The translations under genes and the position numbers were made by a program. The notes beneath the pieces are model-generated. The model was given only the letters and a program-made list of their open reading frames with translations, was not told the origin of the DNA and ran no database searches. A DNA stretch of 40,880 nt from Flavobacteriales bacterium (GTDB lineage Bacteria > Bacteroidota > Bacteroidia > Flavobacteriales > UBA7430), in NCBI GenBank assembly GCA_029247585.1, contig JAQWKY010000018.1, positions 1 through 40,880 of the forward strand. Direction: 5' to 3'. Below, one piece after another: positions 22,646 to 25,198 of this stretch; the stretch's first letter is position 1; each line of letters starts with the position of its first letter.

Positions 22646-23908
22646 TTAGAGACCGAAATTGAGTTTGATTTTCTCAACAAAATCAAGTTTTTCCCATGGA
22701 AAGGTCTCGATTTCTTTGTGTATTTTTTTACCCTCTTCCATTTCAAAGGAGATTGTTTTTTTCTCAGAGTTTCGTCCCATATGTCCGTATGCAGCCGTCT
22801 CGGAATAAATAGGGTCCTTAAGTTTGAATCGATTTACAATCGAAGCAGGTCTCAAATCAAAGAGTTCATTTACTTTTTTAGCAATTTCACTATCGCTGAG
22901 GTCTATTTTTGAAGATCCATAGGTGTCAACAAAAATACTCATGGGCTCTGCCACACCGATGGCGTAGGCTACTTGTACAAGGATTTGATCTGATACTCCT
23001 GCTGCCACTAAGTTTTTTGCGATGTGCCTTGTGGCATAGGCTGCTGATCGATCTACCTTTGAGGGGTCTTTTCCTGAAAAAGCTCCACCGCCATGAGCTC
23101 CTTTACCTCCATAAGTATCTACAATAATTTTTCTACCCGTGAGACCTGTGTCTCCATGAGGGCCCCCAATCACAAATTTTCCGGTCGGGTTTACGTGGTA
23201 GGTAATCGAATCATCGAACAGAGAAACAATTTGTTTCGGTAATTTTTTCTTAACTCGTTCAACAAGTATGTTGATGACATCACTTTTTATTTTAGCTAGC
23301 ATTTTTGATTCTTCATCAAAGTCATCATGCTGTGTTGAGATAACTATAGTGTCAATACGTTCAGGAGTATGCTGATCGGAATACTGAATGGTTACTTGTG
23401 ATTTTGCATCAGGACGGAGATAGTGCATTACTTCATGATTTTCACGCCTTATGGTTGCAAGTTCTTGAAGTAGTAAGTGAGAAAGACTTAAGGCCAAGGG
23501 CATATAGCTATCCGTCTCATTGGTTGCATAACCAAACATGATACCCTGATCTCCAGCTCCTTGTTCTGTGTGTAGTCCTTCTCCTTCTATAACTCCTTGC
23601 AGAATGTCAGGTGATTGTTCGTGTACTACAGACATGATTTTACAAGATTTTGCTTCAAACTTATACGCAGGGTCTGTATAGCCAATGTTCTTAATCACAT
23701 TTCGAGCTTCTTTTTCAATGTCTACTTTGGCTTTTGAGTTTATTTCACCGCTAAGAACTGCCAACCCTGTTGTTACAAGTGTTTCACAAGCAACTTTAGA
23801 CTCAGGGTCTTGAGCGAGAAATGCATCGAGTATAGCATCCGAAATCTGATCAGCAACCTTATCCGGGTGTCCTTCTGACACAGATTCAGATGTGAAAAAG
23901 TACGACAT
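22646..23908 (-). CDS. metK: S-adenosylmethionine synthase
   Basis: [55 protein letters not shown]. Confidence 0.98.
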
Positions 23909-23967
23909 ATCGTAATCTTTAAATGATTTTTTAAAATTAAAGTCTGATCTGGGCTTTGCGGTAGAGA

Positions 23968-24020
23968 ATACTGCTTTAGCCTTTTTTATAGTGGTAGCAA
24001 TCAGTCAAATTCATCCACTG
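23968..24020 (-). ncRNA. SAM-II/SAM-V-like riboswitch aptamer in the metK leader
   Basis: Minus strand CAGTGG-ATGAATTTGACTGATTGCTA-CCACTATAAAAAAGGCTAAAGCAGTA: P1 AGTGG/CCACT, pseudoknot ACTG (loop)/CAGT (3' tail), conserved TTTG...TTGC...TAAA...GCTAAA. Confidence 0.82.
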
Positions 24021-24058
24021 CTTTGCAAAGATAAGAATAAGATTGATTTAATATTTTA

Positions 24059-24958
24059 TTACTTCGTTAGATTGTGGAAAATAGTTTCTAGTTTTTCTTC
24101 TTCCACGTTTATTTGGAGCACGGTGATGTTGTGGGCTACTGCAAATTGGAATAAAACGGATCTTAGGTCGAATTTAGCCTCGGAAATGATTTGATACCGA
24201 TTCCCCTTGAGTTGTATAGCTTCAGTTACATTTTTGATCTCTAGCAGATCTTTTTTGTTCACAGATTGATTGAACTCTACAGTAATTATTTTCTTTTTCT
24301 GTGTTAGGCTTTGAAGTTCTTCAATGGATTTATCGGCAACTATTTTACCCTTGTTGATGATGATAACTCGGTCGCAAATTGCCTCTATTTCTTGGATGAT
24401 GTGCGTAGATAACATCACTGTTTTCTCCTGGCCAACTTCTTTAATTAAGGATCTTATCTCTACCCTTTGGTTTGGGTCTAGTCCTGTTGAGGGTTCGTCT
24501 AAAATGAGTACCTCAGGTTGATGAATTAGTGCTTGTGCAAGGCCAACTCTTTGCCGGTATCCTTTTGAGAGTGCGCTAATAGATTTGTGTTGTTCATTTT
24601 TTAGCCCTGTTTTTTTAATTATTTCATCAACTTGCTCATTCATAATTCCGTGAATGTTAGCAGCAAATTTCAAATATTCCTTTACATACATTTCAAGGTA
24701 TAGAGGGTTGTGTTCAGGAAGGTATCCAATTTTACGTTTGGTCTCAATGGGGCTGTCAAGAACGTTTCGATTACATATTTTTACGACGCCTGATGTAGGT
24801 GTTATAGATCCGGTAAGTATCTTCATTAGAGTAGTTTTACCGGCACCATTAGGGCCTAAGAATCCAACAATTTCTCATTTTTTTATCTCAAAAGAGATTT
24901 CTTGAAGCGCTTTTTGTGTCCCGTATGATTTAGAGACCTTTTCTACTTTTATAGACAT
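24059..24958 (-). pseudogene. gldA: GldA-like ABC transporter ATP-binding protein, interrupted by an in-frame TGA (24875-24877)
   Basis: Reads MSIKVEKVSKSYGTQKALQEISFEIKK*EIVGFLGPNGAGKTTLMKILTGSITPTSG... with LSKGYRQRVGLAQAL, EVLILDEPSTGLDP; 300 codons including the internal stop. The track ORF (24059..24826) lacks Walker A. Confidence 0.85.
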
Positions 24959-25037: not shown

Positions 25038-25110
25038 TACCGATAACTCAAAGCCTGTACCGATAACTCAAAGCCTGCACCGATAACTCAAGAGTGTCTA
25101 CCGATAACTT
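25038..25110. repeat. Four-copy direct repeat with core ACCGATAACT, about 20-bp period
   Basis: ACCGATAACT begins at 25039, 25059, 25079 and 25100; the first two 20-nt units (TACCGATAACTCAAAGCCTG) are identical. Confidence 0.9.
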
Positions 25111-25198
25111 AAAATCATTAGTAAATCAGGATCTTATAAATTATATTTAAGTAATGTTATTATGATAATGAGCATTTCTCGAGGGGCGAGTAAATGTG

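Follow-up and report, generated by a model that had tools for sequence, protein, structure and literature searches.

A SAM-II riboswitch of the RF01726 form ahead of metK in a Flavobacteriales genome, and a possible anti-aptamer strand in Bacteroidia metK leaders

Results

The window, by which we mean the whole 40,880-nucleotide stretch of Flavobacteriales DNA that was analysed, carries on its minus strand a metK gene for an S-adenosylmethionine synthetase of 420 amino acids (22646–23908). The gene was recognized with Pfam and TIGR01034 (508.7 bits; cut-off, 309.4), in agreement with an earlier reading of the letters alone (the sequence-only reading), which had named metK as the gene downstream of a riboswitch at 24020–23968. 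The sequence quoted there is present on the minus strand at that position, and the spacing of 59 nt between 23968 and the metK AUG at 23908 is the same as was given; the location was right and the extent slightly off, as the covariance-model match is wider (24024–23966). Just upstream of the aptamer lies the promoter box TATCTTTG (24026–24033, minus strand). Since it fits the Bacteroidetes element TAnnTTTG, which sits at −12 to −5 in Flavobacterium (PMC9723704), transcription should start about 2 nt ahead of helix P1, near 24021. Of 85 non-redundant leaders, 75 have such a box immediately before P1, whereas shuffling predicts 3.8.

Two further observations concern the DNA upstream of the leader. 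The gldA-like ABC transporter gene at 24059–24958 contains an in-frame TGA (24875–24877, minus strand) a little ahead of the Walker A motif, at a position where L016, a relative, has Gly (EIKK-G-EIVGFLGPNG). As a result, the open reading frame in the list comes without its N-terminal part; the TGA may reflect an assembly error, a nonsense mutation or a pseudogene. A tandem repeat of 20 bp in 3.8 copies (TACCGATAACTCAAAGCCTG) occupies 25038–25113, between this gene and the divergent rsgA.

The element belongs to SAM-II in its RF01726 form. The sequence-only reading had called it SAM-II/SAM-V-like and had proposed covariance models as a check, and the check was positive: in a scan of the whole window, RF01726 ("SAM-II long loops"), the Bacteroidetes form of SAM-II, matched 23966–24024 on the minus strand over model positions 1–60 with 62.7 bits (E 7e-10), well above the cut-off of 44, and was the sole Rfam match at gathering cut-offs. 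The SAM-II half of the name therefore stands, and the SAM-V half holds only for the common pocket letters. SAM-V gave no match at gathering in the window, nor at E <= 10 in 23850–24150, and SAM_alpha (RF00521) reached 13.2 bits against its cut-off of 36 in a permissive scan of the region. The aptamer is present as a single copy, the next best RF01726 site in the genome (1.79 Mb, 97% complete) scoring 18.9 bits. SAM-II was already reported in 2005 from the Bacteroides group (PMC1273637), and Weinberg et al. 2010 list "SAM-II long loops" in their Table 1 as a cis-regulatory riboswitch RNA of marine Bacteroidetes (PMC2864571); the sensor is thus an ordinary one, of a kind published in 2010.

The helices that had been proposed from the letters are real. 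P1 consists of five Watson–Crick pairs between AGUGG (A24019–G24015) and CCACU (C23994–U23990), as in the model structure, and it covaries among relatives by a paired switch from GUGG/CCAC to GAGG/CCUC. The pseudoknot consists of four Watson–Crick pairs between ACUG (A24005–G24002) in the loop and CAGU (C23973–U23970) in the tail, and across the 85 leaders the natural combinations of loop and tail match better than swapped combinations (0 of 5000 permutations). The additional loop pairing of G23998 and C23997 of UUGC with G23980 and C23979 of GCUAAA is possible as suggested. The pocket nucleotides UUU, AUU and UAAA are all there, within the consensus segments AUUUG (24010–24006), GAUUGC (24002–23997) and GCUAAA (23980–23975); their roles are taken from the SAM-V structure, which is stated there to match SAM-II (PMC6061858). 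In the window's own family, the aptamer core is nearly invariant in the seven members having it and the leader downstream varies; an alignment of six of the family's sequences contains hardly any variation at the pairs.

RF01726 scored above its cut-off in 40 of 59 near relatives, in 206 of 297 genomes of the order and in 59 of 393 genomes of the class. The aptamer precedes metK in all 111 aligned Bacteroidia leaders (53/53 in the first set), some of which were gathered by aptamer and others by MetK protein, so that the linkage follows from the query for the MetK-protein loci and is independent for the aptamer-found loci. Seven of the 12 genomes of the window's family have aptamer and metK together. 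Two genomes from another genus of the family (G004 and G007; leaders L172 and L173) have metK behind a leader of about 60 nt that holds no SAM-II aptamer, which makes the aptamer dispensable and suggests that the riboswitch was lost within the family.

The architecture of the sensor differs among leaders. One or two additional hairpins, from which the family takes the name "long loops", lie between P1 and the pocket strand in Flavobacteriaceae and relatives (L063, L091, L102, L069, L070, L079 and L087) and add up to about 50 nt. In Chitinophaga-like leaders (L092, L143, L149 and L152), the loop is reduced to UUUGAUUGCUUGC, the tail reads ACCAUU and the standard CUG/CAG pseudoknot strand pair is absent. 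Sub-threshold second RF01726 matches (28–30 bits; E 0.001–0.007) in three genomes of the order (G015:C1:2096438-2096491, G057:C1:994920-994973 and G041:C1:4535213-4535266) could be diverged SAM-II copies ahead of other genes.

With the start codon lying 59 nt downstream, the pseudoknot covers neither it nor a ribosome-binding site, and Shine–Dalgarno sites are missing from Bacteroidetes mRNAs (PMC6847099); the switching part of the leader, a point that the sequence-only reading did not take up, therefore needs another explanation. Read by eye, the downstream leader mirrors the aptamer, as with GCAAUCAGUGCA versus UGUACUGAUUGC in L134 and GCCAAAUCUU versus AAGAUUUGGC in L037. We computed the best duplex that the 5' half of the aptamer, spanning the P1 5' strand to UUGC, can form with the leader between a point 8 nt past GCUAAA and the AUG, relative to dinucleotide shuffles; this span excludes the pseudoknot strand, which when included overstates some leaders, the window's among them. 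The 85 non-redundant leaders gave a mean z of −2.10 (sem 0.15), with p<=0.05 in 62%, compared with a z of −0.07 in 44 control metK leaders without aptamer. Each leader preferred its own aptamer over those of others by a residual of −3.0 kcal/mol (0 of 10,000 permutations), and the whole-leader fold gave a group z of −2.45.

The signal was also present by lineage. String-similarity clustering was unusable, because AT-rich leaders look alike (75 of 85 fell into one cluster), so lineages were taken from the genome families in the search tables, with named records grouped by title. Across the resulting 34 Bacteroidia lineages, which are not fully independent, the mean z was −2.07 (sem 0.25; t-test p 1.4e-9). 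Ten draws were made with one leader from each lineage; swapping without phylogeny correction left residuals of −2.6 to −3.3 kcal/mol (0 of 5000 permutations each time). Among the 60 leaders with stronger duplexes, the median distance from the end of the anti-aptamer strand to the AUG is 27 nt, so the start region is not part of the hairpin. The pocket strand GCUAAA(G) has a moderate downstream complement, with runs of at least 6 in 32% of leaders versus 15% in shuffles, and it is striking in single leaders (L039, L091, L102 and L072). At the level of the group, this complementarity points to an anti-aptamer switch whose target is probably translation.

The window's family is among the weakest in the duplex test (mean z −0.16). 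An anti-aptamer strand of this kind was sought in the window itself and gained no support, as the duplex with the aptamer 5' half is at chance when the pseudoknot strand is excluded (z +0.21); the whole-leader fold is at chance as well (z −0.27), and the predicted start-region accessibility is 0.48 in both states. Two short segments of the later leader are candidates for a smaller device. AGCC (23955–23952) may pair with GGCU (23981–23978) in a hairpin that would exclude the pseudoknot and could be extended, with one mismatch, by UACCGC (23963–23958) and GCAGUA (23974–23969). The hairpin is predicted in L016 and L032, has variants in L025 and L034 and is not significant alone in the window; AGCY is kept at 23955–23952 in the family, complementing GGCU, the first G of which is peculiar to this family. 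AUCAG (23948–23944) is complementary to the aptamer loop CUGAU (24004–24000), a match not significant in the window, and AUCAGA (23948–23943) is invariant in 7 of 7 family leaders within an otherwise variable stretch, making AUCAG a candidate remnant of an anti-aptamer strand. A relative, L026, has the full nested form with a fold z of −1.73 (p 0.05). The window's family may hold a reduced version of the group arrangement, composed of a hairpin over the pocket and pseudoknot strand and the CUGAU/AUCAG pairing.

No intrinsic terminator was found between aptamer and metK in the window, and terminator-like hairpins were not enriched in the group (0 of 60 leaders versus 3% in shuffles), which makes translation the most likely output. 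When the aptamer was held folded in the 85 leaders, the start region was slightly less accessible than in shuffles (z 0.63, sem 0.20; Wilcoxon p 0.02), a small effect on which sequestration of the start region as a strong general effect was rejected. Closing is clear in L012, L021, L022, L024 and L059 and missing from many leaders; leaders that change in the other direction, too, are more frequent than in shuffles.

Discussion

The leader in the window is very probably a SAM-II riboswitch that represses metK. A SAM-II RNA from another species binds SAM (PMC1273637), and we infer the same binding, with an OFF response, for the RNA described here. Feedback on the SAM-synthesizing enzyme would be the natural reading, given the conserved link between aptamer and metK. 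Transcription would begin about 2 nt ahead of P1, and with abundant SAM, P1 and the ACUG/CAGU pseudoknot would close around the ligand and metK expression would drop. In the SAM-free RNA, the aptamer strands would pair with the downstream leader instead: a long anti-aptamer strand would, in the majority of Bacteroidia lineages, engage the aptamer 5' half and sometimes also the GCUAAA strand, and in the window's family this role would fall to the hairpin over the pocket and pseudoknot strand together with the CUGAU/AUCAG pairing. The strand released by SAM binding would then pair near the A-rich start region and lower translation.

We propose tentatively, leaning slightly towards doubt, that the Bacteroidia SAM-II leaders have a common platform, in which a long hairpin forms without SAM and SAM frees a strand to cover the A-rich start, with the window's family as a reduced form. 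An anti-aptamer, translational mechanism as a feature of the group is likewise possible rather than probable, and for the window's own leader such a mechanism is rather doubtful. A degenerate copy, with the aptamer kept and the switch no longer working, would also leave behind a weak anti-aptamer signal such as that of the window's family, and a sister genus has lost the aptamer altogether. However, the core has stayed nearly invariant in seven family members while the later leader varied, and AUCAGA has been kept in all of them, so that we regard an inactive copy as highly improbable.

Other outputs could be attached to the same sensor. A transcriptional OFF switch with a terminator, as inferred for many proteobacterial leaders, is an arrangement common in Proteobacteria (PMC1273637, PMC2258182), but the window has no terminator and the 60 leaders no enrichment, a result that concerns intrinsic terminators and not Rho-dependent termination; we consider this output improbable. 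Control of mRNA stability is somewhat better placed, though still unlikely. Here the long hairpin at the 5' end would protect the SAM-free mRNA, and SAM would expose a pyrimidine-rich, single-stranded leader to nucleases, with translation affected indirectly. Transcription starting at the foot of the hairpin would suit this arrangement, the hairpin is supported at the group level whereas sequestration of the start region is weakly supported, and SAM-II leaders of Sinorhizobium alter mRNA stability with SAM (PMC9373788). Nevertheless, SAM stabilises the RNA in Sinorhizobium, which is the opposite direction (PMC9373788), and none of our results speaks directly for decay. Translational control, to which the missing terminators point, is the output we consider most likely.

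A known riboswitch ahead of SAM synthetase is hereby confirmed in a member of the Bacteroidia with a small genome. How riboswitches switch in Bacteroidetes, whose mRNAs have no Shine–Dalgarno sites, is little studied, and the anti-aptamer strand that recurs in metK leaders is a defined element that can be mutated and tested. If the proposal is true, it would represent a translational riboswitch platform for mRNAs of this kind, kept across the class through changing sequences. We did not find a description of this platform in the accessible literature on SAM-II and RF01726, although the supplement of the 2010 paper or another source may contain one; the group-wide platform seems to be undescribed so far.

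The closest known system is RF01726 itself (Weinberg et al. 2010, PMC2864571), with which the element agrees in the consensus over all 60 positions, in P1, in the pseudoknot and in its Bacteroidetes host group. The consensus AAUGCUAAA reads AAGGCUAAA in the window's family and UUGCAACC reads UUGCUACC in most of its members, and there is no further difference. The metA motif of SAM-II (SAM_alpha, RF00521; Corbino et al. 2005, PMC1273637) has the same single P1 and pseudoknot, the same UUU and GCUAAA pocket and a promoter directly before P1, but it is found with methionine-synthesis genes and frequent intrinsic terminators, whereas the gene here is metK and there is no terminator. SAM-V (Huang and Lilley 2018, PMC6061858) has the same pocket letters (those of the U-rich strand, AUU and UAAA), and its binding core is superimposable on that of SAM-II according to the same study; it differs in having the ribosome-binding site at the aptamer 3' end, while the start codon in the window is 59 nt away. 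Translational riboswitches of the antisequestor/sequestor type (PMC2258182) operate in a different setting, since the phylum considered here lacks Shine–Dalgarno sites (PMC6847099) and the start region is A-rich, and start-region pairing of the antisequestor type is weakly supported in the Bacteroidia leaders. The likeness to these switches lies in the proposed strand, which would be common to the aptamer-side helix and the start-region helix.
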